Source of the DNA: Thermoplasmata archaeon
GTDB taxonomy: Archaea > Thermoplasmatota > Thermoplasmata > Thermoplasmatales > Thermoplasmataceae
Assembly: GCA_021846695.1 (NCBI GenBank)
Contig: JAJZWN010000001.1
Location: 31,313-95,312, forward strand
Length of the DNA: 64,000 nt
Direction: 5' to 3'
The translations under genes were made by a program, and so were the position numbers. The notes under the pieces were generated by a model. That model did not search any database, was not told the DNA's origin, and saw only the letters and a program-made list of their open reading frames with translations. Below, piece by piece: positions 4,263-39,028 of the stretch. Positions within the stretch are counted from its first letter, which is position 1. Every line of letters begins with the position of its first letter.

Positions 4263-4298
4263 GCAAAAATTAATAAAGGTACTAATGATCTTATTTTT

Positions 4299-4757: not shown

Positions 4758-4832
4758 TGGCATAAAAGTTATTATATTATTTTCTAATCACCATCTTGAA
4801 TAATGGTAAAAACATTAAACTGGTGATAATAA

Positions 4833-5087: not shown

Positions 5088-5088
5088 G

Positions 5089-22278: not shown

Positions 22279-23271
22279 TTAATCACCCTGCTTTGATTCT
22301 CTGGAGATGTATGTTATCTCAACCTTTTCTGCATTTGATACTTTCTGTCTTGCCGGGTCCCTTAGTTTTATTAACCTCTTAGCAGGACCGGATATGGACC
22401 CGTAAAGTAATATATAATCATTCCTTACCAGGCCGTAGTTGAGGAAACCGCCCTTAACGTTAATTTCATCAACATTGTCCTTTTTTCCGAATTTCATAAC
22501 TCTTATATTATGTAAGGTCCTCTGATGCAGACCAACCTGACCTGCCTGAGGTACAGTATTCCTTACCCAATCAGGATGCCACGGACCAAGAGTTCCTATC
22601 ATTCTCCTGTGTTTCCTGTTACTTCTGGGCAGAAGTTTTACACCGAATCTTTTTACTACACCCTGAAAACCCTTCCCTTTTGTAACTGAAATTACATCAA
22701 CAAAAGAGCCTTCAGCATTGAAATCGGAGAAGTGCAATTCCTTGCCAAGCTTCTCTTCTGCTAGTTTAATTCTGTCAGCGATTGTAGATCCTGCTATTCT
22801 AACCTCGAATATCTCCGGGGTTTTATTAGGTATTCCTGTAACAAGTTTTGGATTAGTATTAACCAGCAGACGTACATCTGCCACATCCTTGATCTCTACA
22901 TTTTTTGAATCCTTATTCTTGATTTCGGGTATCCTCTTAAAAACTTCTTTTTCAATATTTTCCGCCCTCTTTTCAGTGAATACTCTAAGGCCATTGTCAC
23001 CATCTTCATAGTAACGAATAGCTATAACATTCAATGGAGGGACTTCTACTACTGTTACAGGCACCATGATGGTTTTTCCAGCTGTTACACTGGTTTTCCT
23101 ATAATCTGTTACCTGAACGTGTGTCATTCCTACCTTATATCCAGCGAATGCCTGAATTTTCGACTTGCCTTCTATCTCTGGCCATGATCGAATTCCAGCC
23201 CCAATCTTTTTAGCACGTACTCTGGGATAGTACGCCATTGATCCCCTACGGGAATGATGCGGTGTTGCCAT
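22279..23271 (-). CDS. rpl3: Ribosomal protein L3 (uL3), first gene of the superoperon
   Basis: A 330-residue protein starting MATPHHSRRGSMAYYPRVRAKK, with FAGYKVGMTHV, SVTKGKGFQGVVKRFGVKLLPR and GTLGPWHPDWVRNTVPQAGQVGLHQRT as archaeal L3 marks. A GGTGATATAAA ribosome-binding sequence precedes the ATG, so this message has a leader. All genes from here to nop5 run in the same direction with gaps of at most about 28 bases, so they are probably one transcription unit or a few nested ones. Confidence 0.97.
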   Translation of the reverse strand: MATPHHSRRGSMAYYPRVRAKKIGAGIRSWPEIEGKSKIQAFAGYKVGMTHVQVTDYRKTSVTAGKTIMVPVTVVEVPPLNVIAIRYYEDGDNGLRVFTEKRAENIEKEVFKRIPEIKNKDSKNVEIKDVADVRLLVNTNPKLVTGIPNKTPEIFEVRIAGSTIADRIKLAEEKLGKELHFSDFNAEGSFVDVISVTKGKGFQGVVKRFGVKLLPRSNRKHRRMIGTLGPWHPDWVRNTVPQAGQVGLHQRTLHNIRVMKFGKKDNVDEINVKGGFLNYGLVRNDYILLYGSISGPAKRLIKLRDPARQKVSNAEKVEITYISRESKQGD

Positions 23272-23624
23272 TTTATATCACCAACCGTTACACTTACTAT
23301 ATTGCCAATAAATTGCAATATTCCGGGTTGCTATTTGCATTGCCCAATGTGTATGGTTAAATTGCGAAAGGTTATTGGATTAATATTTATTAAGTTTGTT
23401 ATTATAATTTCTTATTTTCCTAACAATTTCTACGGATAATTAATCTGTTCATTGTTTAAACGAAAATGTACTATAATAGATTTATCTTTTATAATGCTGG
23501 TGACAATCACTTAATAAATATTGTTAATGTGGCACCAACTAATCTATTACAGACATTTCGAACTGAACATAATGAATATCGTAATTTATTGCCAATTATT
23601 AATTTTCAAAAATATTATATTATT
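23272..23624 (-). promoter_or_regulatory. 353-base gap with probable promoter of the ribosomal superoperon
   Basis: No coding potential is seen. On the minus strand there is a TATA-like AATAAATATTA at about 23381-23391, which would place transcription about 90 bases before the L3 ATG. A second weaker A/T box (AATTTATTGG, about 23305-23314) would give a leader of about 12 bases just containing the L3 ribosome-binding site. Which is used cannot be told by eye. The part beyond 23450 is AT-rich DNA downstream of the metallo-beta-lactamase-fold gene, with no clear structure. Confidence 0.4.
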
Positions 23625-24239
23625 CTATGAGCAATTATAAGGTTCTCCATGAGACGGCAGTATGGTTACAGGGCATAAATCTTTAATTTTGTGTAGGGAC
23701 TCTCTAGCATCTTCCATATTCTGCGTGAACATGGGGTCAATCTTAAATTTTTTTCTCTTAATAGTAAATGCATCACCAACGAATATTGCGTTTTTCTCTT
23801 TATAATATATGGATACATTATCCTGAGAGTACCCTGGCGTATCTATAACTTCCAGGAAATCAATTTCCATTTTATTATAAGAATATACGTGCTGAATTCC
23901 CTCAAATCTTAACCCCTTTCCTTCTATTTCCAGAATTCCCTTTAATTTAGGGCCATTTTTCATGGTTCCCATGCCGCGTTTAGGCACATATATTTTAGGA
24001 TTGTAAGTATCGTAAATATCACGCAATGCACCTACATGAATGTAATCTACAGCGGTTATCAACACATAGTCGGGAGAACTACCAGTTGCACTATAATAAT
24101 CCATTATTTTATTGAAGTCTGCCTGTATCCCGGCATCTATCTGAATGGTAGTACCATTACGTTTTAGTACATATGTATGAACAACCGTGCCAGGTATCAT
24201 ATCGATGGTCTCAGGAAAATTAAAAACAATTTTAGACAA
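23625..24239 (-). CDS. Metallo-beta-lactamase-fold protein lacking most metal ligands
   Basis: A 204-residue protein with the MBL fold order: N-terminal IDMIPGTVVHTYVLKRNGTTIQIDAG, then the loop where the family has THxHxDH. Here that loop reads LITAVDYIHVGAL, so two histidines and the aspartate are gone and only the last histidine remains. The next ligand is also changed (TPGYSQD instead of PGHS). The later GDAF aspartate and the LPSHGEP histidine are kept. It is probably non-hydrolytic or binds metal differently. It is the last gene of the oxidase-linked run, 32 bases after ctaB. The function is unknown. Confidence 0.82.
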   Translation of the reverse strand: MSKIVFNFPETIDMIPGTVVHTYVLKRNGTTIQIDAGIQADFNKIMDYYSATGSSPDYVLITAVDYIHVGALRDIYDTYNPKIYVPKRGMGTMKNGPKLKGILEIEGKGLRFEGIQHVYSYNKMEIDFLEVIDTPGYSQDNVSIYYKEKNAIFVGDAFTIKRKKFKIDPMFTQNMEDARESLHKIKDLCPVTILPSHGEPYNCS

Positions 24240-24271
24240 TACATTTACCTCCTATCACAAATATATTAAAA

Positions 24272-25138
24272 TTATATAAAAGGGTATATTATTATGACGA
24301 GCAAAAGAATCAATAGATACATATTTGAAAATCCGAATGCACTTCTGAAATATTTTTTGTTATATTGCTTAAAGGCTGGTCTGGCGACGTAGTAGAGTAA
24401 GATAGCATCCATGATTACTGCTATAGGCAGATATGCAAGTCCAAGTTTAATTGCGGGTACTAGGAATGGTATAAGAGAGTAAAAGACAAGTATTACCGTA
24501 TTGACGATAATCCAGAATTCAGTTTTTTTAACACCAACCATTGCAGGTAACATTGGAACCTTACTAGATTTATAATCATCAACATTATTTATGGAAAGAT
24601 TCCAGAAGTGAGTGGGTGTCCACATGAATACAAGGAAAGCTAGAAATAGCGATGTAAGTGAGACCGAATTTGTTAGGGCTGCCCATCCTGCAAGGGCAGG
24701 AAAGCCACCTGCTATTCCACCTATGACAATATTAAGGCTAGTCCTCCTTTTAAGAAATACAGTGTACAAAAATACATAACTAAGGAACCCTCCAAAGATA
24801 AATAATGCTGTCAGTAAATTTATGAATAATGAGCTAACTGCGAATGATACAATAATCATAATGAGAGCGATAGAGAATATATAATTTCTTGTGTTTTCAT
24901 TTAGTGTGCCTGATCTGGACCTGGTCCTCTTCATTTTTGTATCTATATCCATATCATAGATGTTATTGAACATGCTTGCTGACATAGAGCCAAGAGTTCC
25001 AGTAAGTATAAGCAAGAATAACAACATTGGATGAGAGAAACTGCCCGGTGCTAGAATAAAAGCTGTGACGGCAACTAAATCTATTAAAATCGTAATTTCC
25101 AGTTTAGTTATTTTCATGAAGTTTGCTAATTTACTCAT
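24272..25138 (-). CDS. ctaB: Protohaem IX farnesyltransferase (haem O synthase)
   Basis: Attaches the farnesyl chain to haem B to make haem O, for the terminal oxidase. The 288-residue UbiA-family membrane protein has about eight helices. The prenyl-diphosphate/Mg motif NNIYDMDIDTKMKRTRSRSG lies near residue 60. A second conserved loop, FLVFMWTPTHFWNLSINNVDDYKSSKVPMLP, contains the CtaB-typical WTPTHFW. It lies 48 bases after coxB on the same strand, so it is probably co-transcribed with the oxidase. Confidence 0.95.
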   Translation of the reverse strand: MSKLANFMKITKLEITILIDLVAVTAFILAPGSFSHPMLLFLLILTGTLGSMSASMFNNIYDMDIDTKMKRTRSRSGTLNENTRNYIFSIALIMIIVSFAVSSLFINLLTALFIFGGFLSYVFLYTVFLKRRTSLNIVIGGIAGGFPALAGWAALTNSVSLTSLFLAFLVFMWTPTHFWNLSINNVDDYKSSKVPMLPAMVGVKKTEFWIIVNTVILVFYSLIPFLVPAIKLGLAYLPIAVIMDAILLYYVARPAFKQYNKKYFRSAFGFSNMYLLILLLVIIIYPFI

Positions 25139-25186
25139 ATTTAGTCACCCTGCTTAAAGTAATAATTTAAGATAAAATAAAAATAT

Positions 25187-26014
25187 TTATGCACCAGCTG
25201 ATGGTGGTGCTGTTGTGCCATTATAGTAGTTGTTAGGTCCGTAGTTTTCAGAATACCCGTCAAGGTGGAATTTCTCTACCATCTCACCGTGTACTGTTGT
25301 GTTTAACCAGCTTTCATACTGTGTTTTAGGTAACACAAATGCCGGACCCCTCATATGGGCATGTCCGAGTCCGCAGAGCTCTACGCACTCAAAGTGGAAT
25401 TCCCCTGTCTCTGTAATATTGGTCCATATGTAATTATAATGCCCCGGAAAAGCGTCAACTTTAGAGACATTAATTAGATAGAACGAATGCATTACATCAA
25501 CACTGGTTACATTGAACTGAATCGGAGTATCTGCTGGCAGTACAACAAAGTGCCTTGATGATGCGCCATTGGGATATATGAATATCCACTGCCACTGGTA
25601 GCCTATTACCTTAATATCCATATAGTGGTGGGCATCTGTGGGAGCTGATGGTGCGGCCCCTGCAACCCTTATTCCGTATGCAGGTGGTAGATCGTAGACC
25701 AACAGTGACAGTAATATAAGCACCACGAAGAGAACGAATAACTTGAAAATGGTTTTATTTCCACGTTCAAGGTTTTCAATTCTTCCCGGCCTCATATCTA
25801 CATCCTTATTGTACTTTGAATTTTCAAAGTCATCCGCTTTTTTTGGCTTGTAACTTTTTAGGAATACATACACATACCATAGAGCAAAACCTGCCCCTAT
25901 TAAAATACCAGGGACGATGTATGCTAAGAATATGGATGTAATCTCCGCTCCCGTAATGGAGCCTCTTGGTATCAGATGATACACACTTGGTAATATATTA
26001 TATAGTTCTAACAC
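25187..26014 (-). CDS. coxB: Haem-copper oxidase subunit II with CuA site
   Basis: Accepts electrons from the donor through the binuclear CuA centre. Two N-terminal helices (about residues 25-48 and 90-112) are followed by a cupredoxin domain outside the cell. This carries the aromatic GYQWQWIFIYPNG, the first CuA histidine in VDVMHSFYLI and the loop CVELCGLGHAHM with both cysteines, the glutamate, the second histidine and the methionine. All CuA ligands are present. GTG 26014 is preferred because the GTG at 26023 lies inside AAGGTGA, the likely ribosome-binding site. It follows the sulfocyanin gene by 10 bases. Confidence 0.95.
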   Translation of the reverse strand: MLELYNILPSVYHLIPRGSITGAEITSIFLAYIVPGILIGAGFALWYVYVFLKSYKPKKADDFENSKYNKDVDMRPGRIENLERGNKTIFKLFVLFVVLILLSLLVYDLPPAYGIRVAGAAPSAPTDAHHYMDIKVIGYQWQWIFIYPNGASSRHFVVLPADTPIQFNVTSVDVMHSFYLINVSKVDAFPGHYNYIWTNITETGEFHFECVELCGLGHAHMRGPAFVLPKTQYESWLNTTVHGEMVEKFHLDGYSENYGPNNYYNGTTAPPSAGA

Positions 26015-26024
26015 TTTTCTCACC

Positions 26025-26639
26025 TTATTTTATTGTATAGTACGGTACATGAACCGAAGAGCTAACTATTACAAATACGTACATCCCTGCCTCTGCATGG
26101 GTGGTTAATCCGCACACTGCCCAGTAATGGCCTGGTTGTGTGTCATTCCACCATATGGATCTGTAATGTGCAACGTTTCCATACCATATTGGATCTATTG
26201 TACCCGTACTATTTATGACCTTTTGGACATGCACACTGGTATGTGCCCATATGGGCCCACGTGCCCACTGTGATTTATATGGAAGTTCGAATTTAAGTGT
26301 ATGTGGCTTAACCTCATAATTTGTCATATTGGCATGTATATCTGCATTAGCAGGCAGATATATGGTCATAGCACCATAGGACGTACCGTTGAAATTAAAT
26401 GGATATGCGTTGGGATGACCATTTCCCTCTCCCCATGCAGCAAGTGAAAGGTTCACTATTTGAACCTTTGACCCGTTGACGGTGGTATTATAGTACGGGA
26501 TTGCCTTGTAGCTGACCTTGCCCTGGTCCGACATAACTGTATTCGTTGGCTGGTAAGAAGCTACAGTTATCCCAATGGCCGCTATTAGTACTATAGCTAT
26601 GGCCAGAACCGCAAACGCTGCCTTTGTTACTGGTTTCAA
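26025..26639 (-). CDS. Sulfocyanin-like blue copper protein, membrane-anchored
   Basis: A single-copper electron carrier, likely the donor to the oxidase in acidophilic archaea. An N-terminal hydrophobic helix (residues 4-26) anchors a roughly 175-residue cupredoxin domain on the outside. The type 1 site is visible as KPHTLKFEL (first His) and CGLTTHAEAGM (Cys, His, Met). The start is inferred to be TTG 26639. GGAAGGTGGT is the ribosome-binding site, and TTGA overlaps the stop of the upstream small subunit. A reading from GTG 26648 begins inside that site. Sulfocyanin is established in Ferroplasma as part of the iron-oxidising chain; that role here is inferred. Confidence 0.9.
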   Translation of the reverse strand: MKPVTKAAFAVLAIAIVLIAAIGITVASYQPTNTVMSDQGKVSYKAIPYYNTTVNGSKVQIVNLSLAAWGEGNGHPNAYPFNFNGTSYGAMTIYLPANADIHANMTNYEVKPHTLKFELPYKSQWARGPIWAHTSVHVQKVINSTGTIDPIWYGNVAHYRSIWWNDTQPGHYWAVCGLTTHAEAGMYVFVIVSSSVHVPYYTIK

Positions 26640-26863
26640 CTGAACCACCTTCCCATAAATACCTGGAGAAATAGCCAGAGGCTAAACCATATGGCTATTA
26701 TGATTACAGCCACAGCATACGGGTTTTTCCATATGCCCACTTCTCCATATTCAAGGTCGTCGTCCCCCAGTTCCATATCCACATCTTCATAACTATACGA
26801 AGATGCCACTCCAGTTTTATTCTTGCTTATTGTTTCTGCATTTTCTTTATTTATATTATCCAT
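26636..26863 (-). CDS. Small single-helix oxidase-associated protein
   Basis: A 75-residue protein with an acidic cytosolic head (residues 1-45, including MELGDDDLEYGE) and one transmembrane helix (about 50-70, AVAVIIIAIWFSLWLFLQVF). It lies between the fused subunit I/III gene (nine-base gap) and the sulfocyanin gene (TTGA overlap), so it is very probably a structural small subunit of the same complex, like the subunit IV peptides of other oxidases. No sequence family is recognised. Confidence 0.85.
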   Translation of the reverse strand: MDNINKENAETISKNKTGVASSYSYEDVDMELGDDDLEYGEVGIWKNPYAVAVIIIAIWFSLWLFLQVFMGRWFS

Positions 26864-26872
26864 TTTTTCACC

Positions 26873-29380
26873 TCATGCTATGAATGCAACAGTGGTAAAC
26901 ACTGTTGTAAGGAATACAAACGCTACAAACCACATTATAACGTCCGCACTTGTTGCAGTTCTGCCCCAAAGGAACTTTTTGGAATACTTGACCCTTACTG
27001 CATAACCGATCATTACTGCTATCACACCTATTCCAAATAGCAAGTCCATTAAAGATATAAGCCAGTACATAGAGGCTATAGGATTGTTCGCTGTTGCACC
27101 CCCAAGACTTAAAGCAGAGTACGAGTTGATATTAACTAGTGAAAGCAGAGATGTTATAATGAATATTATTCCAAATACAGCTCCAACAGCCATATAACTT
27201 GCACTCTTTCCTGGGGATTTCTTTATAGCGCCATATAATGATCCCCATGCAAGTAGGGCGGCTATTCCTATGGCAGCTATGGAAATGTATATGTAAATAG
27301 ATGCCAGTGATGGGAAGAACCATGTTACTGGGTCATTTCCTTCTACGTATGGAGATACTGACTGAAGTTTTAACCATTCAACCATTCCATAGAATGTAGC
27401 CATCCAGATCATATCTCCAGCCAAGAATATCAGCATACCAAGCCTTGTGTTGTTGAATCCTATTGTTACTGGATCTTTCTTGTACGTTGGAGGAACATTT
27501 GGCGATTTGAGTTTGTAATCATCATACATCCATCCAATAGTTCCAACCAGGAACAGTGCAGCTGCCACTGCCACTATTGCATATCCTAGATAAGCATAGA
27601 ATATTCCGAATGCATAGGGTTTGTACCCCATCATTGCCACTACTGCACCTATGAATCCTATTACCACTCCAAGTGCGATGTATAATGGCCTTGTAGATAA
27701 TTCGACTTTAGGTGGTTTTATAGGTTTATTCTTATCCAGTAACAGGTCTCTGTTATCCTCTCCGCCAACATATGGCTCATAATCAAAATTATAGTACTTC
27801 GGTGGGTTTGTTGTGAACCACACAAATCCTGCAGTGGCTTTGTATGGGTTCTGATCTGTTAATGGCGCATGTTTTTTCATGGAATATGCAAAGTTTGCGA
27901 ACATTATCAGGAACGATAAACCGAAGATAAATGCTCCAACTGTGGATATTTCATTGAATATAGTATAACCGAAACCGGACTGATATGTATATACCCTTCT
28001 TGGTAAATCGTAGAGGAAGAACATTGGAAAATAGAGCGTATTAACCCCTATGTACGCAATTGCCCAGTGTATCCTTCCCAGTGTTTCATTATACATTTTT
28101 CCTGTGAACTTTGGGAAATAATAATACAGATTTCCCATTAGCCCCATTACGGCCACACCAACCATGAAATAATGGAAATGTGCAACGACATAATAGTCTC
28201 CATGAACAATAGTATCTATAGCAAGTGAAGATTGTGTAACGCCTGTTATACCACCGATCATGAAGGATGTAGATGCTGCAAGTGCAAATAGTATGGGTGT
28301 CTGGAATTTGTGTTTTGCTCCTAGGAGTGTTGCTATCAATCCAACTATCAACATTCCGGTAGGTATAGATATAGTTTCTGTGAATACACTAGTTGCCATT
28401 AACCATGCAAAGACTATACCGGTCATAAATGTGTGATGAAGAAAAACCATAACACTATCAACTGATATAGCACCCATTGCTGCTATCATCCATTTTTTCA
28501 GATAAGGGGCCCTGTGACCTAAATTCGATAGGTAATCAAACATTGCCCCGGTACCAGGTAGTAGAAGTAAATACACCTCCGGATGCCCAAAGTACCAGAA
28601 TAGGTTTTCCCACATAAGAGCACCCCCGTATGTTGAAATAAATCCACTTAATCCCAGAAGGTTTGAGACAACAAGAACGAAGAATAGTGCACTTATTTCA
28701 GGGAATACAAACCATGATATCATTGCAACCCACAGTACGGCCCACACAAATAATGGTAGATTCATTAACCTAAAACCACGTGCCCTGGCCTTGAAGACAG
28801 TAGCTATAACCTCCGTCGAGGCAATGATTGTACCAAGCCCTCTCACCACCACTGCGGCAGCAGCCGTATCAGCCCCTATATATGGTGTAAACTTAAATGA
28901 TGATAATGGCTGATAAACTGTCCATCCTGTATCGAGATTTCCGCCAGGAAGGAAGAATCCCATCCAGAGAAGTATACCACTGAATAAGTATAACCAGTAA
29001 CCCAGGGCATTAATCCTTGGGTATATCATATCTCTAGAACCAATAGCAAGCGGTACCAAATAAATACCAAATCCAAAACCTAGTGGACCAAGGAACCATA
29101 TTAGCATTGTAAGGCCATGTATGGTTACAAGCTGATTATACTGAAGTGCGTCCAGAAATCTTCCGGAGAATAGACCATAATGAACAAGGTCATATCTTGG
29201 TATTGCCAGCTGTACTCTCATCAAGAGCGCTAGAACACCGCCACCTATAAAGAAAACCAGAGATGTCAGTATATACAGCAGCCCTATTTGTTTGTGATTT
29301 GTAGTGAAAATCCAGCCTCTGACTGAATTGTATATCCTGTTATTCTTTTCATATAATTCATCGTTACTACCGACTTCCAT
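26873..29380 (-). CDS. coxA: Haem-copper oxidase subunit I fused to a subunit III-like domain
   Basis: Reduces oxygen to water. Residues 1-520 are subunit I, with low-spin haem ligand His88 (QLVTIHGLTML), CuB site GHPEVY (His266, Glu268, Tyr270), His315-His316, and the haem pair in VAHFHYFMVG (His401, His403). Residues about 610-835 form a seven-helix subunit III-like part, as in other archaeal I+III fusions. Glu268 and the DMIYPR segment point to the A family. However, the K-channel lysine expected after PTG is missing (PTGMLIV). A TATA-like box about 24 bases upstream of the ATG indicates a leaderless mRNA. First gene of the operon. Confidence 0.95.
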   Translation of the reverse strand: MEVGSNDELYEKNNRIYNSVRGWIFTTNHKQIGLLYILTSLVFFIGGGVLALLMRVQLAIPRYDLVHYGLFSGRFLDALQYNQLVTIHGLTMLIWFLGPLGFGFGIYLVPLAIGSRDMIYPRINALGYWLYLFSGILLWMGFFLPGGNLDTGWTVYQPLSSFKFTPYIGADTAAAAVVVRGLGTIIASTEVIATVFKARARGFRLMNLPLFVWAVLWVAMISWFVFPEISALFFVLVVSNLLGLSGFISTYGGALMWENLFWYFGHPEVYLLLLPGTGAMFDYLSNLGHRAPYLKKWMIAAMGAISVDSVMVFLHHTFMTGIVFAWLMATSVFTETISIPTGMLIVGLIATLLGAKHKFQTPILFALAASTSFMIGGITGVTQSSLAIDTIVHGDYYVVAHFHYFMVGVAVMGLMGNLYYYFPKFTGKMYNETLGRIHWAIAYIGVNTLYFPMFFLYDLPRRVYTYQSGFGYTIFNEISTVGAFIFGLSFLIMFANFAYSMKKHAPLTDQNPYKATAGFVWFTTNPPKYYNFDYEPYVGGEDNRDLLLDKNKPIKPPKVELSTRPLYIALGVVIGFIGAVVAMMGYKPYAFGIFYAYLGYAIVAVAAALFLVGTIGWMYDDYKLKSPNVPPTYKKDPVTIGFNNTRLGMLIFLAGDMIWMATFYGMVEWLKLQSVSPYVEGNDPVTWFFPSLASIYIYISIAAIGIAALLAWGSLYGAIKKSPGKSASYMAVGAVFGIIFIITSLLSLVNINSYSALSLGGATANNPIASMYWLISLMDLLFGIGVIAVMIGYAVRVKYSKKFLWGRTATSADVIMWFVAFVFLTTVFTTVAFIA

Positions 29381-29398
29381 GTTAAATAATTTCTATGT

Positions 29399-29408
29399 AA
29401 AATATAAG
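29399..29408 (-). promoter_or_regulatory. TATA-like box of the oxidase operon
   Basis: On the minus strand CTTATATTTT lies with its centre about 24 bases before the coxA ATG, the spacing expected for transcription starting at or next to the start codon. Confidence 0.6.
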
Positions 29409-29459
29409 AGTAATTATAGAATATTTTCGTAACTTATTCCCATATAAATTTAAAAACTT

Positions 29460-29504
29460 AGCATATTATGCTATTTTCATTCATGGATGTGTTGTATATC
29501 AACA
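29460..29504. promoter_or_regulatory. Two short inverted repeats in the oxidase/DUF929 intergenic region
   Basis: AGCATATTATGCT (29460-29472) is a perfect 6+1+6 inverted repeat and TGTTGTATATCAACA (29490-29504) is a 5+5+5 inverted repeat. They sit 80-125 bases upstream of coxA within the 371-base divergent gap 29381-29751. Apart from these and the two TATA-like boxes, the gap shows only AT-rich DNA. An operator role is possible but unproven, since such repeats also arise by chance in AT-rich DNA. Confidence 0.3.
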
Positions 29505-29721
29505 TATAATTAGATAAAACGCAATATATGTATATTTAACGTGAACTTAAGATAAGATGTTAATGCCTGTAAATATACTAAAACGAGAAGAACATAAAAT
29601 CTTTACAAATTTATAATTTGATACAAAAATTCGAGATGATATAATAGAACCATAGAATCTTAGACACAGAGTCTGCCAAATTGATGCCATTGAGGGATAG
29701 TGTGGTCTACAATACAAATCT

Positions 29722-29729
29722 CTAAATAA
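29722..29729 (+). promoter_or_regulatory. TATA-like box of the DUF929-like gene
   Basis: CTAAATAA is centred about 26 bases before the ATG at 29752, consistent with a leaderless transcript and supporting that ATG over the upstream TTG at 29743. Confidence 0.55.
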
Positions 29730-29751
29730 CATTTTTAACTTATTGCAACAA

Positions 29752-30513
29752 ATGAGCCAAAAAGAGCATTATAATAAAAAGTTACTGGCATTCTTTATAG
29801 CTTTCTTTATAGTTATAACTTTTCTTGCAGTTTACGGTGCTGAACATTATAACGGACATGATGAAACAGTAGAGCTTGAACAATACTGCAAAATATCAGA
29901 TAATGACCTGGTTAAGGACAATACCAGCACATGCTTGTACTATATAACATGGGATGGAAGTCCTACTGGTAATGCTGGATCCTGGGCGTTATATGAATTT
30001 TTAAATGACCATGGATATAATATGGATAAAAATGGTTATGTTAAAACATCTCAATCTATGGATAATTTTGAGTATAACAGTACCCCAGGAGTAATATTCA
30101 ATAATTCTACATATACTGTAGATTATAGTGGGCACACAACTATAATTAAACCAATATACATTTATGGTGAGAACCTCACAAATAACACTACAATAGCCGC
30201 TGGCCTACAAAAATTGAAAGGAGATGTGCCTAGTGGAGTATATAACGAGGTTAAAATATATACAACAGAGGCCATAGTTGATGGGCTAAGCATACCAAGC
30301 GACAATATCAGCCAGTACCATCACATTAATTCTGTTACATTAATAAATGGACCGGCAGGAGCATATATATTTAATGGATACCTTATAAACCCAACAAATT
30401 TTGAACATGAGACACCACATCAAGTTATAACAGATTTAAGGGACAACCCATCATATAAGCCAGTAGGAGATGCGGTCAAAGGTCTAGAAACATATATCAA
30501 GGATTCTGATTAA
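29752..30513 (+). CDS. Secreted or membrane-anchored DUF929-like protein without CxxC
   Basis: A 253-residue protein with one N-terminal hydrophobic helix (about residues 9-28) and a hydrophilic exterior domain carrying several N-x-S/T sequons. The segment YYITWDGSPTGNAGSWALYEFLNDHG resembles the DUF929 family. Those archaeal proteins have a thioredoxin-like GCPYCAAESW at this place, so here the two cysteines are replaced. Two cysteines remain earlier (QYCKIS and TSTC). It is divergent from the oxidase operon. ATG 29752 is chosen over TTG 29743 from promoter spacing. Family assignment is moderate; function unknown. Confidence 0.7.
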   Translation: MSQKEHYNKKLLAFFIAFFIVITFLAVYGAEHYNGHDETVELEQYCKISDNDLVKDNTSTCLYYITWDGSPTGNAGSWALYEFLNDHGYNMDKNGYVKTSQSMDNFEYNSTPGVIFNNSTYTVDYSGHTTIIKPIYIYGENLTNNTTIAAGLQKLKGDVPSGVYNEVKIYTTEAIVDGLSIPSDNISQYHHINSVTLINGPAGAYIFNGYLINPTNFEHETPHQVITDLRDNPSYKPVGDAVKGLETYIKDSD

Positions 30514-30726
30514 TTATTTACCAAAATTTTAATTATAAGATTATTTATAAAGAGGACTTGCCTATAATTTAAAGGTATGAGAGAAATAAGGGAAAATTCC
30601 AGATATAACAAGTATCCTCGTAAAAGAGAAAAATGGATAAAGATGATCTATTGCACAAAATGATGCACGTTTATAAAAATTATTTGATTTGGATTAACCT
30701 GGTCGCTCAAATTATCTATGCTGGCA

Positions 30727-30948
30727 TTATGATTCCTTATTTTTATCTCTGAACTTTAGAATTATCATTATAGCAATAAATGCTAGTGCTATAGCTAACA
30801 TAAATAAGTCTACAGCATATCCATCCGCATAAAATCCAGAAACAATAGAGCTGGTAGAATATGGTTTAAATGCCAGCAAAAGTCCGAATATACCCATCAT
30901 AGGCACGGAAAAGAATCTATTTTTTATTTCTTTACCCTGAGTTTTCAT
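30727..30948 (-). CDS. Small two-helix membrane protein, unrecognised
   Basis: A 73-residue protein with two hydrophobic helices, about residues 14-35 and 43-64, and a basic C-terminus (KFRDKNKES). No family is recognised. It belongs to a run of three tiny membrane proteins between the oxidase region and the polytopic protein at 31615-33153. The ATG at 30948 is preceded by AT-rich DNA suitable for a promoter. The gap 30514-30726 before it shows no convincing gene. Confidence 0.6.
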   Translation of the reverse strand: MKTQGKEIKNRFFSVPMMGIFGLLLAFKPYSTSSIVSGFYADGYAVDLFMLAIALAFIAIMIILKFRDKNKES

Positions 30949-31017
30949 AATTATGTATAATTTTGTATATTACTTAAAAGTTATTATAAAATATATTTAT
31001 ATTTTAAATATACGGGT

Positions 31018-31236
31018 TTAAATTTTATTTGAACCATTATTCTCTGGGCCATGCAGTGATATCTGGGTGGAGGCTAATGCTGTAAGTCCGAGGCCAATTA
31101 TAAAGGCTGCTACCCCAATCACACCGGTGTATGATGCGTATGGCAATAATCCATAAATTGATAATATCGCTAATCCGAATCCACCGATCAATAACGAAAG
31201 TCCGGCCGTTAAAAGTTTCATTCCTTTAGGTAACAT
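31018..31236 (-). CDS. Small two-helix membrane protein, unrecognised
   Basis: A 72-residue protein with two glycine-rich hydrophobic helices, about residues 8-27 and 34-55, and a polar C-terminus (LHGPENNGSNKI). The longer reading from 31245 begins at a GTG that looks like part of a CAGTGATA ribosome-binding sequence, so ATG 31236 is preferred. Family unknown. It lies 69 bases from the next small gene on the same strand. Confidence 0.6.
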   Translation of the reverse strand: MLPKGMKLLTAGLSLLIGGFGLAILSIYGLLPYASYTGVIGVAAFIIGLGLTALASTQISLHGPENNGSNKI

Positions 31237-31368
31237 ATTTATCACTGAGTGATTATAATTTAATTCTATTTAATATTTTTTATAGAAATCATTTGCCTAC
31301 ATACGTTTATATTAAAGTTTGAATATATTCATTAATAAGTATTTTATACATACAGATAATATGTACAT

Positions 31369-31524
31369 ATGACGTTTGACATAACATCTGCATTAATAAC
31401 ACTGCATGCAGCGGCTTATAATCCCAATTCAGAGACCCTGTTCTTGCTTGTTATAATGGGTATGTGTGCTGCAATAGCTATAGGAGCAACAATATTTGTA
31501 AAGGAATTTATACTTAGAAGGTAA
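31369..31524 (+). CDS. Tiny single-helix membrane protein (51 residues)
   Basis: An ORF of 51 codons beginning MTFDITSALITLHAAAYNPN, with one hydrophobic helix (about residues 24-43, containing LFLLVIMGMCAAIAIGATIF) and a basic end KEFILRR. A TTTTATA box at 31342-31348 is centred 24 bases before the ATG, matching the leaderless promoters of neighbouring real genes. That is the main reason to call it. The upstream ATG at 31361 is blocked by a stop. It could be a respiratory small subunit by location only. Confidence 0.5.
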   Translation: MTFDITSALITLHAAAYNPNSETLFLLVIMGMCAAIAIGATIFVKEFILRR

Positions 31525-31614
31525 ACAAGGAGTAAAGATATTTTCTATAAGTTATAAATATTACAGGTAAATATTTTTATTACAAAACTAGTTTTTAAAT
31601 AATTATTGAACATC

Positions 31615-33153
31615 TTATTTTTCTGCTGGAACAACCATCTTAGAATTATGGTTTTTTACCAATATTGGTGTTTCTGGAATAGAATATCTATACATTGTAT
31701 CTATTGTGCTAAGCCACATAAACGGAAGTGAGACTGCCCATAGAATTGCAGAGAAATAAAGCTGCTGTTTAATTCCGAAGAATGGAAATATGTCTGTAAG
31801 CGATATAATTGATATGTAGAAAAATACAAGTGCGGTCATGCTGAACATCATTGAATTAAATTCTATATATGCAGCCTTTAGCTTTTCCAGGCTGAAATAC
31901 ACAAGATATGTTAGAATACCTGCCCCAATACCCATTATATTCATCATTATATAAATATTATAGTTAGAATATGCGTAGTAAGCCAGTGAAGGTACGAACC
32001 ATATAAACATCATAACAGATGCTATAGTCATTAAAGCTGCCTTTACTTTTACAGTTTTTATGAATGGTTTCATTCCCAATTTTGTTATGGCATACATGAG
32101 GAAAATACCAGAAATAAACATCAGTATATTTACCCCATAAAAGAATAGCATAGAGGTTTTTTGCAAATGGAAAAATATTCCAATCACTTCTAGCACTGGA
32201 ATCAGCATAACAAAGAATATAGCCAGCAACGGAAAATAGTTACTGTTTCTCAAATTTTTGATGGAGGATACAAATTTTATTTTTGCCCTACGATTAATAA
32301 AAACACTGAGCATAAAGTTACTCAACAGCAGCAATAGAATACTTTCCGAGAGTAATGTAGTGCTAATAACAGTGGCCACCACTGCAGCTACAGTTGGCAG
32401 TATGGCTGTAAGACCCTCGCACTGGCAACTTAAGGCTGAAACACCACCGCTTATAGCTGGAGTAACAAGATTTGTTGCCTGTCTTCTTGCGCGTGATTTT
32501 TTCCCCAGAATTCCGGTATTTAAATTCACAATGCTAAAAATAAGAAAGTAGTTCTCAGTTAAAAGTGCTGCAAGTATTATATAGAGTATGATGGACTGTA
32601 ATCCCATTGTAAAATATATATAATTAACACGCATTATAATACCATAGTAAAACAGGTATGGAACCTTTGATGAAGAAAAATCTGCGTATATTGAGTCGAC
32701 AACTATTTTCGTAGGTTCCACCGGAACAGATATTACAAAAAATCTGGAAATAATTAACATAATAAATAGAATTAATATGAATGCGGCCCCACGGTAAAAC
32801 ATTGGCTTACTTTTTTTGAAATATAGATTATCAATTATATCAGTGTAAAAAGCCAGTGTAAGAAGGATCATTATTTCCATTAATGGATACACTATATAGG
32901 TAAAGAGGAGAACTATAAATGTAAATAATCCAATAAACAGGAAATACAAATAAATCCTATTTATTACTGAATTTTTCCTGAAAAAAACCAGAAGTGGGAA
33001 TATTATATAGGGTATTAACAGGGCTATAAATTGGTATACAGAAGGATAGAGTCTGGTTGAAAATACCACGAATATTCCTGATATGGCGGAATAGATAAAC
33101 AGATATAAGGTAAATACTGAAATTATTATACTTTCTACTGCTTCTCGCTTCAT
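31615..33153 (-). CDS. Polytopic membrane protein, about 14 helices, unrecognised
   Basis: A 512-residue integral membrane protein with around 13-14 hydrophobic helices spread over its whole length. A mid-protein segment, VTPAISGGVSALSCQCEGLTAILP, follows a basic stretch (GKKSRARRQATN). It contains a Cys-Gln-Cys-Glu motif preceding a helix, the only striking polar feature within the membrane part. I do not recognise the family. It is divergently transcribed from the membrane polyferredoxin with a 93-base shared promoter region, and lies among oxidase and haem-modification genes. A role in the respiratory chain is therefore plausible but unproven. Confidence 0.85.
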   Translation of the reverse strand: MKREAVESIIISVFTLYLFIYSAISGIFVVFSTRLYPSVYQFIALLIPYIIFPLLVFFRKNSVINRIYLYFLFIGLFTFIVLLFTYIVYPLMEIMILLTLAFYTDIIDNLYFKKSKPMFYRGAAFILILFIMLIISRFFVISVPVEPTKIVVDSIYADFSSSKVPYLFYYGIIMRVNYIYFTMGLQSIILYIILAALLTENYFLIFSIVNLNTGILGKKSRARRQATNLVTPAISGGVSALSCQCEGLTAILPTVAAVVATVISTTLLSESILLLLLSNFMLSVFINRRAKIKFVSSIKNLRNSNYFPLLAIFFVMLIPVLEVIGIFFHLQKTSMLFFYGVNILMFISGIFLMYAITKLGMKPFIKTVKVKAALMTIASVMMFIWFVPSLAYYAYSNYNIYIMMNIMGIGAGILTYLVYFSLEKLKAAYIEFNSMMFSMTALVFFYISIISLTDIFPFFGIKQQLYFSAILWAVSLPFMWLSTIDTMYRYSIPETPILVKNHNSKMVVPAEK

Positions 33154-33246
33154 TATATTTTTTGATTATTTCTAAGTAAGGATAAGTTTAATTATAGAAC
33201 AATATCTACAATTAACTAATAATAAAATTGTTTAATCGAGAATTAC

Positions 33247-35460
33247 ATGCTTGATATTGTATTTTTAATAGGTATCATAACAATTATAGTTATGGTAACG
33301 TATATCATTTTTGTATTTTCATACCTAATCAGGCATAAATATGACATATCATTTTTAAAGGTAGCCGCCATTGGGATATTTACTGCAATGATGGCTAGCA
33401 TGCTTGACGCATTCCTGCTTTACATAACAACAGTACATGATTTTATCGATACAGCACTGGCTTTTTCTTTTGGGATGATTTTAATGTCCCAGCCAATAGT
33501 GGCTACCTTTGTAGGAGTATTGCATGGTGGCCTGGACAGAAAAGGTTTAACCCGGGCAAATTCCACTGCGTTCACAGGGCTAATAATATGGAATGAAGTT
33601 TCCATGGGATTGTTTCTGTTCTATTTATTCAACCCGACTATAATACATTTTGATTACTATCATGCCTTCTATTCACTTGATTTTGTTTCCGATCTAAGTA
33701 ATGGAATTAATACAATATATTTCCTTGTCCCTATGAGCGTAGAAATGTTCTTCCTTTATCTGGTTTATAAACCTAAGGGAATGCATAAATACGCATCAAT
33801 TTCTATATTTACTATGGATCTATTTGCGCCTACCCTGCTGGGAAACAATAAATTTGTATTTATAGGTGGCGTCGGGGAAACTGCAGTAATGATAATATTT
33901 ATGATTATATTCTTCGAGTATATAGCAAAACACCGGTTAATGCTGCCGGAGGACGATGCTTACCATATTAAAATGATTTTTATCGATTACCTGTTAATGG
34001 GGGCCGGAACGTTTATCGGGACTCTGCTTTTAGATCCATTTGGCCTTGCCTGGATATTTTTTGCAATGGCAATCGTATTTGGGATGATCTACTATTTTCA
34101 GAGTATGTTCTCAATACAGAAACCAAAAGTTGAGGAAAAAACAAGTAATAATGTGGTAGTGAAACGGAAGAAAATAGTAAACAAACCTGCAAGACTCATA
34201 TTTTTTGTTCTTGTCGCTTCCTTTGTTTCTGAACTTTTCATGGCCGGTTCAATGGATTTTGCCACGTATAATTATCTGCCATTTTTCCGCGTGATTGATA
34301 CCTTGCCAGTTTATCATGGAGCCAGTGTGGCAGGTTTCTACTCCCGTGATGTTTTAAAAGAGTTTGTATCGGCTTTTGTTCCAGCAAGCACCGGGCCGTA
34401 TAATCTGATTGTTTTTTACGGTATGGTTGGAGGTGTATACAAATTTACACCGGTTTCAACATTTATAGAAATTCTTTATGTAATAGGCTACATAACAGAC
34501 TCTCCAACATTTCTTTTGATTATGGGAATAGAGATGATAACTCTAGTTGTGGCACAGATACGTATATTGAAGGACAGGGGAAAAAAGATCAATTTGATGT
34601 TCGCAATTGCAGCCTACCTCCTTTATACAACTATAGGCCCTAATTTTCTGAATCCTTTATATTATAACCGGCTTCCATTCTGGGCAAATACTGGTGCACA
34701 GGCAGCACTTTATCCATATCTCGTTCTCCCACTCTTAGGATCTTATGCATTATATGCGCTTCTTGCCCTGCTTTTCGGGAGGAGGTCGTACTGCTCAACA
34801 CTATGCCCATCCGCTGTGATGTACGGCGGAACTCTTGGGCAGTCTATGATAAAATACAATTACGAGTCCAAAGTAAGCAGGAAACAGAGAACAAGTTATT
34901 TCACGGATTCTGTCCTGTTTATAGCTACGGGTTCATGGATTTGGGCAATACTTGCCTCTTTATTTTCGTATATGTATACAACTACAGGAAGCCTGAGGTT
35001 TAGTATATATGGAATTGATCCTTCAGTTTTCTATTCATATTTTATATGGAATATTTTATGGTATGTTTTCTTTTTCTCCATACCGTTTGTAGGCATGAGC
35101 CCGTGCAGAAAATATGGATGGTGCTCAACCGGAACGCTTGTAGGATTTTTCAGTGTCCTTGGATTTTTCAAACTCAAGGTAAAGGATAAAAATGTATGCA
35201 GAACATGTAAGACAAAGGACTGTGCAACATCATGTGAGGTTGGTTTATCCACAATGCCTGGCTCTTTTATCAAGAGTGGGCAGTTCAAAAGTGTAAAATG
35301 TGTAGGCTCTGGAGACTGCATAAGAGCGTGCCCCTATGGAAATATTTATTTTTATGATGTGAGGAATTACCTACGTGAAAAATTTGGACATAAGAATAAA
35401 GAATTAAATAATGATGACGGATTTGTAATGGTGAAAAAAAACACAGAACTTAAAAAGTAA
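33247..35460 (+). CDS. Membrane polyferredoxin, NapH/FoxG-like iron-sulfur protein
   Basis: A 737-residue protein with roughly 12 or more helices and cytosolic iron-sulfur motifs at the end. The NapH-type loop GRRSYCSTLCPSA lies near residue 515, and SPCRKYGWCST near 617 is a matching second loop. Two ferredoxin-like sites follow: CRTCKTKDCATSC near 650 and CVGSGDCIRACPYGN near 684. The last has C-x5-C-x3-CP instead of the usual CxxCxxCxxxCP. Such proteins move electrons between quinones and iron-sulfur partners. A related gene (foxG) belongs to the iron-oxidation cluster of Sulfolobales. The N-terminal half (about eight helices) is unfamiliar. It is followed by ctaA with a 12-base gap. Confidence 0.85.
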   Translation: MLDIVFLIGIITIIVMVTYIIFVFSYLIRHKYDISFLKVAAIGIFTAMMASMLDAFLLYITTVHDFIDTALAFSFGMILMSQPIVATFVGVLHGGLDRKGLTRANSTAFTGLIIWNEVSMGLFLFYLFNPTIIHFDYYHAFYSLDFVSDLSNGINTIYFLVPMSVEMFFLYLVYKPKGMHKYASISIFTMDLFAPTLLGNNKFVFIGGVGETAVMIIFMIIFFEYIAKHRLMLPEDDAYHIKMIFIDYLLMGAGTFIGTLLLDPFGLAWIFFAMAIVFGMIYYFQSMFSIQKPKVEEKTSNNVVVKRKKIVNKPARLIFFVLVASFVSELFMAGSMDFATYNYLPFFRVIDTLPVYHGASVAGFYSRDVLKEFVSAFVPASTGPYNLIVFYGMVGGVYKFTPVSTFIEILYVIGYITDSPTFLLIMGIEMITLVVAQIRILKDRGKKINLMFAIAAYLLYTTIGPNFLNPLYYNRLPFWANTGAQAALYPYLVLPLLGSYALYALLALLFGRRSYCSTLCPSAVMYGGTLGQSMIKYNYESKVSRKQRTSYFTDSVLFIATGSWIWAILASLFSYMYTTTGSLRFSIYGIDPSVFYSYFIWNILWYVFFFSIPFVGMSPCRKYGWCSTGTLVGFFSVLGFFKLKVKDKNVCRTCKTKDCATSCEVGLSTMPGSFIKSGQFKSVKCVGSGDCIRACPYGNIYFYDVRNYLREKFGHKNKELNNDDGFVMVKKNTELKK

Positions 35461-35472
35461 ATGGTGAGGTGA

Positions 35473-36249
35473 ATGAATGTTATTTTGTATTATTATTTTG
35501 TATTCCAGGTAATTCTTGCTTTTGGAATAGTTGTGGTTGGCGGGACTGTTGAGGGATATGGATACGGGTTATCCCTGGGGACAAAATGGCCATATACTAA
35601 GGATATGCCATTGAAAGCAAAAGCTGGTGACCCGGAGGTCTGGCATAGGATACTTGCCACATTACTTGGCGTAAATGCAGTAATTATGGTTGTTTTAATA
35701 CATGGTTCCCTGGAAATAACAGGTTTAATTCTTGTAGTTATAACTGCACTTCTGGGCATGGCCACACTTTATACTCTGGCCGGAAAAGCACCATCAGTAG
35801 TTCAGGGTTTACATGATATTCTGGCCTACTCTACTGCTCTTACATATCTTTTAATTGTTTATCCTGTGGCTGGAAATGTTCTCTCTTTGATTTATAAGAA
35901 TATACCCCTGTACTTTTTCTTTGCAGTCATATATATGGGAGGTATGACAACAGGAGAAAGAGGGTACCAGAAGGCCATTGGATACTTCAAAATACCAAAA
36001 ACAAAGGCACAGTGGATATGGACCATACATGGACTGGCAGTATTGCTATTCCTGTTCTCACTTATATTATTCTTCTTCAATTACAATGTAGCCCTCATAA
36101 TAATCGGTTTCCAGATCATTGTGGGAATAATAGTATTCATTTCCGTCAATAAATCAGCATCAAGACCGGGATTCATAGTGCCAATGCATCAGTTTTTTAC
36201 CATACTAATTGTACTTTCCATAGTATTCCAGTTAAGTGTTTTCAGATAG
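35473..36249 (+). CDS. ctaA: Haem A synthase, archaeal half-size CtaA/COX15 type
   Basis: Oxidises haem O to haem A for the oxidase. The 258-residue protein has about seven to eight helices. The N-terminal VVGGTVEGYGYGLSLGTKWP matches the GG..xxGxGLS..WP motif of the family. Haem-ligand histidines are visible in PEVWHRILATLLG, VQGLHDILAY, IWTIHGLAVLL and PMHQFF. A GGTGAGGTGA ribosome-binding sequence lies directly before the ATG. It is co-directional with the polyferredoxin. Together with ctaB it indicates that the oxidase carries A-type haem. Confidence 0.85.
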   Translation: MNVILYYYFVFQVILAFGIVVVGGTVEGYGYGLSLGTKWPYTKDMPLKAKAGDPEVWHRILATLLGVNAVIMVVLIHGSLEITGLILVVITALLGMATLYTLAGKAPSVVQGLHDILAYSTALTYLLIVYPVAGNVLSLIYKNIPLYFFFAVIYMGGMTTGERGYQKAIGYFKIPKTKAQWIWTIHGLAVLLFLFSLILFFFNYNVALIIIGFQIIVGIIVFISVNKSASRPGFIVPMHQFFTILIVLSIVFQLSVFR

Positions 36250-36327
36250 GTTAAATAAATTTATTTTTTATGTTATAAATGGGTTTTATATAATATTGCT
36301 CAGCTAAAAATTATTTATAAAAATAGC

Positions 36328-36954
36328 TTATTTTATTGTTTTCTGGATAACCTGCCTCAACTGCCGCCTCAAAAGAAGGTCAAGAGTTGTGGGCGGTATA
36401 TCCAGTGTTGAAGAAAGTTCCTTAAGGCCTATTTTTTTGGGCACGTCGAAATATCCGCGTTCAAATGCCTCTTTCAGTATATATTCAGATTTAACATTAA
36501 TATGCCTTCCATTATATATTCTTATATTACTATCCTTGATATCATACGTTTCTTTTAATGATTCATCTATGTGCCTTATTTTATTATAGTTATTGACATT
36601 CATTTCCCAGAATATATTTCCAGAATAATCTATCCTTTCAAGTTTTATTTTATTTGATGGGCTCATGAGTTTACGCCTCATTAGTTCAACCAGAGGGCAG
36701 CTCTTCGTTAAAATGTTTACTGTTACACAGTTATTCTCCCTTCCAACTATCTCAATTTCATAAGAATGCGGGTAATTTTCCAGGTATTCCACAGATTTAT
36801 CCAGGAGGTCTTCAGATTCCGCATATATAGCCAATGTTTCATAAACATAATTATCACGCAGTTCCTGGTTTACTATCTTAATTCGCACATTATAATCGCT
36901 TATCAGCTGTGATGCGAAACATTTTTCATATTTAAATGAGTACAGTATCTGCAT
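36328..36954 (-). CDS. HTH_10 (bacterio-opsin-activator-like) transcription regulator
   Basis: A 208-residue protein whose last 50 residues match the archaeal HTH_10 domain: ILKEAFERGYFDVPKKIGLKELSSTLDIPPTTLDLLLRRQLRQV. The N-terminal 150 residues form an unidentified sensor-like domain; it contains two cysteines (YEKCFAS and TKSCPLV) that could sense metal or redox state. The location directly after ctaA, facing it, suggests control of the respiratory genes, but that is inference. ATG 36954 begins MQILYSFKYEKC. Confidence 0.85.
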   Translation of the reverse strand: MQILYSFKYEKCFASQLISDYNVRIKIVNQELRDNYVYETLAIYAESEDLLDKSVEYLENYPHSYEIEIVGRENNCVTVNILTKSCPLVELMRRKLMSPSNKIKLERIDYSGNIFWEMNVNNYNKIRHIDESLKETYDIKDSNIRIYNGRHINVKSEYILKEAFERGYFDVPKKIGLKELSSTLDIPPTTLDLLLRRQLRQVIQKTIK

Positions 36955-38954: not shown

Positions 38955-39028
38955 GGGTCCGTAGCTCAGCTAGGTAGAGCGATGGACTCTTAATCCATCG
39001 GTCAAGGGTTCAAATCCCTTCGGACCCG
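38955..39028 (+). tRNA. tRNA-Lys (anticodon CTT)
   Basis: A cloverleaf is readable: acceptor GGGTCCG pairs with CGGACCC (39021-39027), D arm GCTCAGCTAGGTAGAGC, anticodon stem ATGGA/TCCAT around the loop CTCTTAA giving anticodon CTT, and T arm AAGGGTTCAAATCCCTT. The discriminator base is G. There is no intron and no encoded CCA. Confidence 0.97.

Follow-up and report, generated by a model that had tools for sequence, protein, structure and literature searches.

A sulfocyanin respiratory cluster has already been published for Acidiplasma YE-1, F. acidiphilum and P. torridus (PMC12524180), and in the accessible parts of the literature it is described as containing coxAC, soxE, coxB, cyoE, a ferredoxin gene, COX15 and hypothetical genes (PMC12524180, PMC5473848). 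The same set of genes is found in the DNA studied here, a 64,000-nucleotide stretch (the window) of a Thermoplasmata archaeon (assembly GCA_021846695.1, contig JAJZWN010000001.1; Ferroplasma-like host with a genome of 1.47 Mb in 49 contigs). Our analysis centers on two of them: nap, which encodes a polyferredoxin, and m512, which encodes a membrane protein of 512 residues. The published cluster is treated as an iron-oxidation cluster, and the methionine-rich module of nap, m512 and copper supply are not discussed in the accessible sections of these reports. In F. acidiphilum the iron-oxidation chain is placed on a genomic island, with FAD_0146 (COG0348), presumably the nap gene of that species, listed as ferredoxin only in the text available (PMC5473848). 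A precedent for a role of another kind is CcoG: this 4Fe-4S membrane protein is called, in the accessible part of its description, a cupric reductase for assembly of the cbb3 oxidase (PMC8267372). For the window we propose, with what we regard as an even chance of being right, that nap is a Cu(II) reductase and Cu(I) conduit and that m512 loads extracytoplasmic copper sites. The genes on which this proposal turns are the following.

26873..29380, minus strand: coxA, haem-copper oxidase subunit I fused to subunit III, 835 aa, with the CuB site (PF00115)
26025..26648, minus strand: gene for sulfocyanin, a blue copper protein (TIGR03094)
25187..26023, minus strand: coxB, oxidase subunit II with the CuA site (PF00116)
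31615..33153, minus strand: m512, proposed copper-loading protein, 512 aa, about 14 helices (AlphaFold2, AF2, model)
33247..35460, plus strand: nap, 737 aa, membrane module (about residues 1-345) fused to a NapH-like polyferredoxin (weak TIGR02163 and Fer4_7 matches)

CoxA matches COX1 (PF00115) over residues 31-485 with 358 bits (cut-off 34.8), carries the motifs HPEVY at 266, HH at 315 and HFHY at 401, and is the sole COX1 match of the host genome; its subunit III part was assigned from the length of 835 aa and not from a Pfam match. Sulfocyanin scores 257 bits against TIGR03094 (cut-off 168.4) and shows the arrangement C179...H...M, while CoxB reaches 55 bits with PF00116, its CuA motif being intact (CVELCGLGHAHM, residue 213). 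A COX1 protein fused to subunit III, a CuA-bearing CoxB and sulfocyanin encoded in one operon identify a Ferroplasma-type sulfocyanin-linked oxidase.

The nap protein carries the cysteine motifs CX3CP (516), CX5C (620), CX2CX4CX3C (651) and CX5CX3CP (685), the last of which has one cysteine fewer than the usual four of a 4Fe-4S motif. The earlier note on this DNA, made from the sequence alone, had called it NapH-like; the CX3CP motif and one full 4Fe-4S motif are in keeping with this, but not the score, which is 40.2 bits against TIGR02163 (NapH/MauN; residues 495-697) with a cut-off of 213.05. Fer4_7 is matched just below its cut-off of 27 (26.5 bits, residues 651-698). In 19 divergent rows 13 positions within residues 1-345 are invariant (M16, M48, M80, E117, F159, M163, E166, M167, P195, M215, M280, F326 and E329), ten of them Met or Glu and none His; further invariant positions include G427, E429, M430 and cysteines. 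With the exception of P195, the invariant positions fall inside helices of the predicted model (2-29, 36-61, 66-94, 103-128, 157-174, 204-229, 270-288, 314-343 and 420-440). After 111 sequences had been reduced to 79 by culling at 85% identity, 34 columns before the first conserved cysteine were at least 90% conserved, of which 11 are Met, five Glu and none His. Separate copies of the Met-rich module give a similar picture (29 of 37 copies), with Met in six of eight columns conserved to this degree; the Met share of such columns in controls from the same loci is 0-3% (coxA 1/46, ctaB 2/65, ctaA-like 2/96, MFS 0/28).

The AF2 model of m512, with a mean pLDDT of 82.5, contains 14 helices of at least 15 residues. 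The protein has only two cysteines, both invariant, and they belong to the motif C243-Q-C245-E246, which is invariant in 39 rows and lies within predicted helix 230-256. Neither m512 nor nap has an invariant His, and the two genes are transcribed divergently from a 93-base spacer. A search of 389 genomes from the phylum turned up no m512 outside the order; its relative in Oxyplasma meridianum, OXIME_000994, is annotated as 'hypothetical protein'. The location of Met/Glu residues and of a C-x-C motif in helices, together with the lack of a conserved His, points to handling of Cu(I), and from the residue pattern we infer Cu(I) sites rather than sites for haem or Fe(II).

The proposed mechanism starts from the oxidase operon, whose products are predicted to require copper for CuA of CoxB, CuB of CoxA and the blue copper site of sulfocyanin. 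Nap and m512 would form a membrane system that supplies copper to these proteins. Electrons from the cytoplasm would pass via the 4Fe-4S clusters and the CX3CP cysteines of nap, which would reduce Cu(II) to Cu(I), and Cu(I) would then travel along a membrane path of conserved Met and Glu residues in the N-terminal module of nap. At its intramembrane C-x-C-E motif and Met positions m512 may take up Cu(I) and pass it on to the adjacent extracytoplasmic copper protein. What the data show is linkage of the genes, their co-occurrence, conserved residues of ligand type located within predicted helices, and few or no matches to known copper-insertion factors; copper binding, Cu(II) reduction, the direction of copper transfer and the placing of nap before m512 are all inferred.

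The distribution of both genes was surveyed in 117 genomes of the order. Matches to m512 occur in 89 genomes, nap relatives in at least 83, COX1 in 80 (79 after removal of one 92-position match in G027) and strong SoxE matches (at least 65 bits) in 13. All 79 genomes with a substantial COX1 match have m512 (79/80 if G027, which has no m512, is counted). Ten genomes have m512 without COX1, five of the genus Thermoplasma (98-99% complete) and five with a completeness of 52-76%, and in 28 genomes neither is present. The two genes are also linked physically: 56 of 114 m512 copies, from 19 of 23 genera, lie within 10 kb of coxA, 54 of them on the same strand. The refuting outcome named in the earlier note, a lack of conserved linkage in related genomes together with a lack of co-expression, did not occur, and linkage extends much more widely than supposed there. 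Among the nap matches listed, a high-scoring group counts 47, with m512 nearby in 39, COX1 within 10 kb in 32 and both in 30. The nap lists consist of matches to the C-terminal part split by score, not by tree, and the counts are lower bounds; rows matching the N-terminal part only and the fragment G064 C2:1-369 were omitted. Likewise omitted were short COX1 matches of about 47-95 positions (model 310-430) in G027, G028, G039 (two), G048, G081 and G082, and small extra m512 fragments in G029, G050, G096 and G109, while three sub-cut-off COX1 fragments at contig ends (G065, G064 C2, G111) were retained. G067 (Ferroplasma genus, 91% complete) and G042 (Acidiplasma genus, 96%) have no match to nap, m512, COX1 or SoxE, which is consistent with a location of the cluster on an island.

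COX1 has no match in any of the five Thermoplasma genomes, which keep m512 and nap. The gene order there is cupredoxin-like gene, m512, nap (L047, L052, L092 and L104), and in L047 genes for a Rieske protein and cytochrome b follow about 2 kb further on. One complete Thermoplasma genome has nap divided between two overlapping frames (L052:9662-11583) and one TAA stop within the m512 match (G097:C1:1300596-1301996); both genes may be undergoing decay there or be read in a different way. From 58 m512 matches with no COX1 within 10 kb, 20 regions were picked by hand. Eleven of them contain a cupredoxin-like gene, in ten cases in the order cupredoxin-like, Rieske, cytochrome b, m512, with a short open reading frame (ORF) occupying the Rieske position in L161; Pfam confirmed the Rieske and cytochrome b genes of L151 and L047, the others being assigned by eye. 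In L151, m512 is flanked by genes for a P-type (E1-E2) ATPase with YHS and an Arc_trans_TRASH regulator (Pfam), and in L161 and L162 an ATPase and a small regulator, assigned by eye, likewise abut m512. Copies free of such copper context comprise one clade in two genera (L152, L157, L159, L160, L163, L164 and L167) plus L150 and L169. An FAA-hydrolase gene adjoins m512 in this clade (Pfam in L152, by eye elsewhere), and some of its loci also have a small gene and a VIT1-like gene. In a tree of 51 m512 proteins, which has SH-aLRT support only and six long branches, the 15 cupredoxin-like-linked copies fall into a 17-row group (support 99) that also holds one row linked to nap only (L064) and the context-free row L169. 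Oxidase-linked copies lie outside this group, and seven context-free copies form another group. The best reading of these data is that linkage tracks copper proteins rather than iron oxidation.

Known copper-insertion factors are poorly represented in the order. Cox11 and PCuAC were found in 0/117 genomes, and CtaG in 0/117 over cut-off; the same searches matched in 1, 3 and 2 of 14 control genomes, respectively. Two sub-cut-off CtaG matches (19.3 bits) fall inside m512 genes (G109 and G115). With no matches to Cox11 and PCuAC, none over cut-off to CtaG and weak ones to Sco, these cells appear to produce their CuA, CuB and blue-copper proteins without convincing standard factors. We raise, as a tentative generalization and somewhat short of an even chance, the idea that in acidophilic archaea Sco, Cox11, PCuAC and CtaG are replaced by a copper-insertion system not described so far. 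It would consist of a nap-type polyferredoxin, fused to a Met/Glu-lined membrane conduit and able to reduce and relay copper, and an order-specific m512 loader with its intramembrane C-x-C-E, with subfamilies for CuA/CuB of the oxidase and for the cupredoxin of a cytochrome b complex.

Relatives of nap also occur in Nitrososphaerales metagenome-assembled genomes (MAGs), Marsarchaeota G2, a crenarchaeote single cell and Metallosphaera yellowstonensis, where we considered the best 80 of 153 loci. In M. yellowstonensis (L143) the nap homologue stands directly before coxA, and among ten neighbours scanned Pfam names transposase, COX1, ECH and ABC genes and no cytochrome b; the homologue is at most a candidate for the NapH-like FoxG that the earlier note mentions for the Sulfolobales fox cluster. 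The wider neighbour set stems from loci L105-L149 only and comprises 319 ORFs, 117 of which were scanned with Pfam, with 25 of 147 families listed and without assignment to members. A CuA/coxB-like domain is encoded near nap in five loci, mostly of Nitrososphaerales. Membrane proteins of about 270 aa with an invariant GxxxGAxCCxS motif are encoded near nap in 12 loci (L105, L107, L110, L111, L113, L117, L118, L119, L127, L137, L139 and L141), two of which are not labelled Nitrososphaerales; three members scanned singly (L113, L118, L127) matched no Pfam family. Another membrane family, with the motif LGACCST, is encoded directly upstream of nap in Thermoplasmata MAGs of the JOPF and SubAcS15 series (L116:6286-7515, L134:8114-9499, L140:8083-9375 and L149:265-1569). 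The occurrence of related polyferredoxins close to CuA-like domains and to membrane proteins with GAxCC suggests that the same principle operates in Nitrososphaerales, and it perhaps reaches Marsarchaeota and Sulfolobales.

Several observations weigh against copper supply by nap and m512. To our knowledge, copper binding or reductase activity has not been reported for any relative of the two proteins. Sco (PF02630) is matched at E <= 0.001 in 52/117 genomes and over cut-off in 15, with 22.8-24.8 bits and mostly over part of its length; the host genome's own match lies below cut-off at 19.3 bits, and we read the Sco-type matches as putative peroxiredoxin-like proteins. For E-plasma, the accessible part of one report mentions a NosY-type copper-maturation ABC permease in seven copies (PMC10354927). 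Both genes persist in the five Thermoplasma genomes although these lack a haem-copper oxidase, so the oxidase cannot be the sole target. In nine of the 20 regions without COX1 the profiles used detected neither a cupredoxin-like gene nor an oxidase or nap gene, the neighbours not having been systematically annotated. The cupredoxin-like family resembles sulfocyanin by profile and has four invariant residues, which count in favour of copper, yet the resemblance has limits. Its alignment (16 of 17 matches) gives an hhalign E of 8.5e-6 against 12 sulfocyanins, compared with 0.13 for DUF929, 0.65 for HTH and 0.0096 for the smallest unrelated pair in the same run, and this similarity is confined to the N-terminal 90 columns and leaves out the putative ligands. 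H172, C210, C214 and M225 are invariant, with no second invariant His near the cysteines; no Pfam family is matched over cut-off (Cupredoxin_1 below cut-off in 2/16 members), nor was a convincing match found in the PDB. The model of nap is weak overall (mean pLDDT 66.3), and Met conservation could reflect helix packing. Finally, linkage is incomplete on the side of nap. Among the matches listed, a second, lower-scoring group of 43 from 18 genera contains none near COX1 and four near m512, four COX1 genomes (G056, G075, G077 and G115) have no nap, and a fifth (G050) has a match to the N-terminal module only.

In all 15 second-group nap loci that were read, a neighbouring gene of 277-331 aa encodes a further, separate copy of the N-terminal module (L037, L039, L040, L043, L046, L048, L049, L051, L053, L055, L061, L063, L064, L065 and L067). 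The second-group nap proteins themselves measure about 640-670 aa where complete and retain their own Met-rich N-terminal part. This group is possibly a general copper importer.

Transport of respiratory electrons, derived from quinol or iron and possibly driven uphill to ferredoxin/NAD, is a role that nap and m512 might instead have in the chain of the oxidase. We consider it unlikely, although it stays the main rival because nap, to judge from its Fe-S motifs, is plainly a redox protein. The 4Fe-4S motifs and the CX3CP and CX5C cysteines resemble those of NapH, and NapH/MauN proteins move quinol electrons; moreover, oxidase genes are linked to nap, as are, in Thermoplasma, genes for a cupredoxin-like protein, a Rieske protein and cytochrome b. 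An electron path is weakened, however, by the genomes without strong sulfocyanin, by Thermoplasma and by the set of ligands: neither protein has an invariant His for haem, the conserved membrane positions are rich in Met and Glu, many genomes with nap and m512 lack a strong sulfocyanin match, and among the Pfam matches of the window's cluster there is neither a flavin partner nor a catalytic one. Isolation from F. acidiphilum yielded, according to the accessible text, a complex of an aa3-type cytochrome and a blue copper protein as well as a ba complex, which argues in the same direction (PMC10354927, PMC5461723). The earlier note had assigned the unknown membrane proteins and the polyferredoxin to the path of the oxidase, or to an uphill path from iron or quinol. 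Their linkage to the oxidase stands, but an iron or uphill path is not favored, given the contrast between SoxE in 13/117 genomes and m512 in 89 and nap in at least 83, the Thermoplasma genomes devoid of COX1, and the Met, Glu and Cys ligands. In addition, P. torridus is stated to have the cluster yet not to oxidize iron, and expression of the Acidiplasma cluster, as far as the available text reports it, is higher on sulfur than on ferrous iron, lower on pyrite and unchanged on arsenopyrite (PMC12524180). We thus move the interpretation from an electron path for iron to copper supply, a step that we hold with middling confidence.

Two further explanations dispense with copper altogether. m512, and with it nap, might be structural or assembly partners, for example scaffolds that link cytochrome b and oxidase complexes. 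Such a role would fit the position of m512 after coxA-ctaB in some loci and after Rieske-cytochrome b genes in others, two kinds that separate on the tree; the Cys pair of C-Q-C-E, the Met/Glu set of nap and the P-type ATPase, TRASH-regulator and cupredoxin-like neighbours would be left unexplained, and we regard scaffolding as improbable. Iron handling, with nap acting like the FtrD-type polyferredoxins and m512 as permease, seems very improbable to us. NapH-like polyferredoxins do occur in ferrous-iron uptake systems, relatives of the host live on iron, and a VIT1-like protein (PF01988, 22.6 bits, below the cut-off of 28.1) is encoded next to one m512 of the context-free clade. Against this, the conserved ligands are soft (Met, Cys), the neighbours are redox proteins of the copper type, and FTR1 and P19 were not seen among the scanned neighbours (in one scan, among the 25 of 147 families listed).

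Apart from the genes discussed so far, the cluster contains the following.

26636..26863, minus strand: 75-aa protein with one predicted membrane stretch, conserved in nine aligned sequences
24272..25138, minus strand: ctaB, haem o synthase (TIGR01473, 248 bits, cut-off 210.3)
23625..24239, minus strand: metallo-beta-lactamase-fold (MBL) protein (PF00753, 54.5 bits)
29743..30513, plus strand: DUF929 protein, divergent from coxA (PF06053, 109 bits), conserved in nine aligned sequences
30727..30948, minus strand: tiny membrane protein 1, 73 aa, with homologues in Ferroplasma, Acidiplasma and Picrophilus loci
31018..31245, minus strand: tiny membrane protein 2, 75 aa, with homologues in the same genus and, at 4e-5, in Picrophilus
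31369..31524, plus strand: tiny membrane protein 3, 51 aa, with homologues in Ferroplasma, Acidiplasma and Picrophilus loci
35473..36249, plus strand: four-His membrane protein, 'ctaA', co-directional with nap and 12 bases after it
36328..36954, minus strand: HTH_10 regulator (PF04967, 43.2 bits, cut-off 23.1)

The tight operon of coxA (I+III), small subunit, sulfocyanin and coxB, followed by ctaB and a degenerate MBL gene, had been recognized in the earlier note, and its genes and coordinates hold. Its gaps range from -13 to 48 bases (coxA to the 75-aa gene 9, 75-aa gene to sulfocyanin -13, sulfocyanin to coxB 1, coxB to ctaB 48, ctaB to MBL 32). The HxHxDH motif of the MBL protein is replaced by TAVDYIH at residue 62. 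Scans with Pfam and TIGR/NCBI profiles gave no family over cut-off for the 75-aa protein. Content and coordinates were likewise confirmed for the DUF929-like protein, the three tiny membrane proteins, the 14-helix protein and the HTH_10 gene. Homologues of all three tiny genes are found within the genus, in six loci (L032, L033 and L056-L059); the profile scan found no family for tiny membrane protein 1 and no Pfam family over cut-off for number 2. The assignment of ctaA was upheld in part. Four His are invariant in 12 sequences of this protein, and the Acidiplasma counterpart is labelled COX15 in the accessible part of its description (PMC12524180), but COX15-CtaA (PF02628) does not match the protein and has 0 matches in its own genome. 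It is probably a counterpart of CtaA/COX15. The gene block is found again in loci of Ferroplasma, Acidiplasma and Picrophilus, far beyond chance. A cluster in ASS_A1 (L041) that also holds genes for sulfocyanin, CoxB, a ctaA-like protein, m512 and nap has a ctaB frame of 583 aa, about twice the usual length with the start position as called (L041:4205-5956). On the same strand 353 bases downstream of the oxidase operon lies a ribosomal protein gene resembling rpl3 (window 22279-23625). The window has two tRNA genes (38955-39028, plus strand; 54358-54431, minus strand), the first of which, about 2 kb past the HTH_10 gene, is a possible island border. At the left edge of the window (about 1-5605), the assembly analysed lacks the first 5.6 kb in contig C22, which starts inside the window.

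Insertion of copper into archaeal CuA, CuB and blue-copper sites has been little studied, as far as the literature that we searched goes, and the locus provides two candidate proteins with named residues to mutate. Should copper supply by nap and m512 prove right, the 'hypothetical' and 'ferredoxin' genes of a cluster relevant to biomining would no longer be assigned to an assumed iron pathway but to enzyme maturation. The locus also offers a testable role for a polyferredoxin family of several archaeal groups.

How nap and m512 relate to described systems can be stated for each in turn. As regards the published sulfocyanin clusters, the inversion of ferredoxin and COX15 genes indicated for Picrophilus in the accessible text agrees with our Picrophilus locus (L036). 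In Oxyplasma meridianum, OXIME_000996-001001 encode a cupredoxin-domain protein, oxidase subunits and a 'polyferredoxin NapH superfamily' protein, for which no function is proposed in the available portion of that report (PMC11349054). In CtaG, conserved positions in 120 rows include E218, M219, M230 and M231. Proteins of the Caa3-type CtaG/CopD kind are membrane proteins tied to copper supply. They differ from our candidates in that m512, nap and the separate module show no profile similarity to them (hhalign E of 0.42, 0.2 and 0.073, all background) and in that nap and m512 lack an invariant His; with PF09678 (Caa3_CtaG), 0/39 m512 members match at E <= 1, and the hhalign value for m512 is of the size seen with controls. 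With NapH/MauN, nap shares CX3CP and one full 4Fe-4S motif, the second lacking a cysteine; it differs by a score far below cut-off, by its extra N-terminal module and by the absence of nap/mau genes from the cluster. To CcoG (FixG/RdxA) nap bears the likeness of a 4Fe-4S membrane protein that would serve an oxidase, with the same chemistry proposed. Unlike CcoG, it has no FixG_C domain (no match at E <= 1, and none among the 22 families listed for 19 relatives), and it has a Met/Glu membrane module, m512 as partner and an archaeal origin. Nap is thus not CcoG by its domains and not NapH by its score, and what we claim for it is a likeness of work, not membership.

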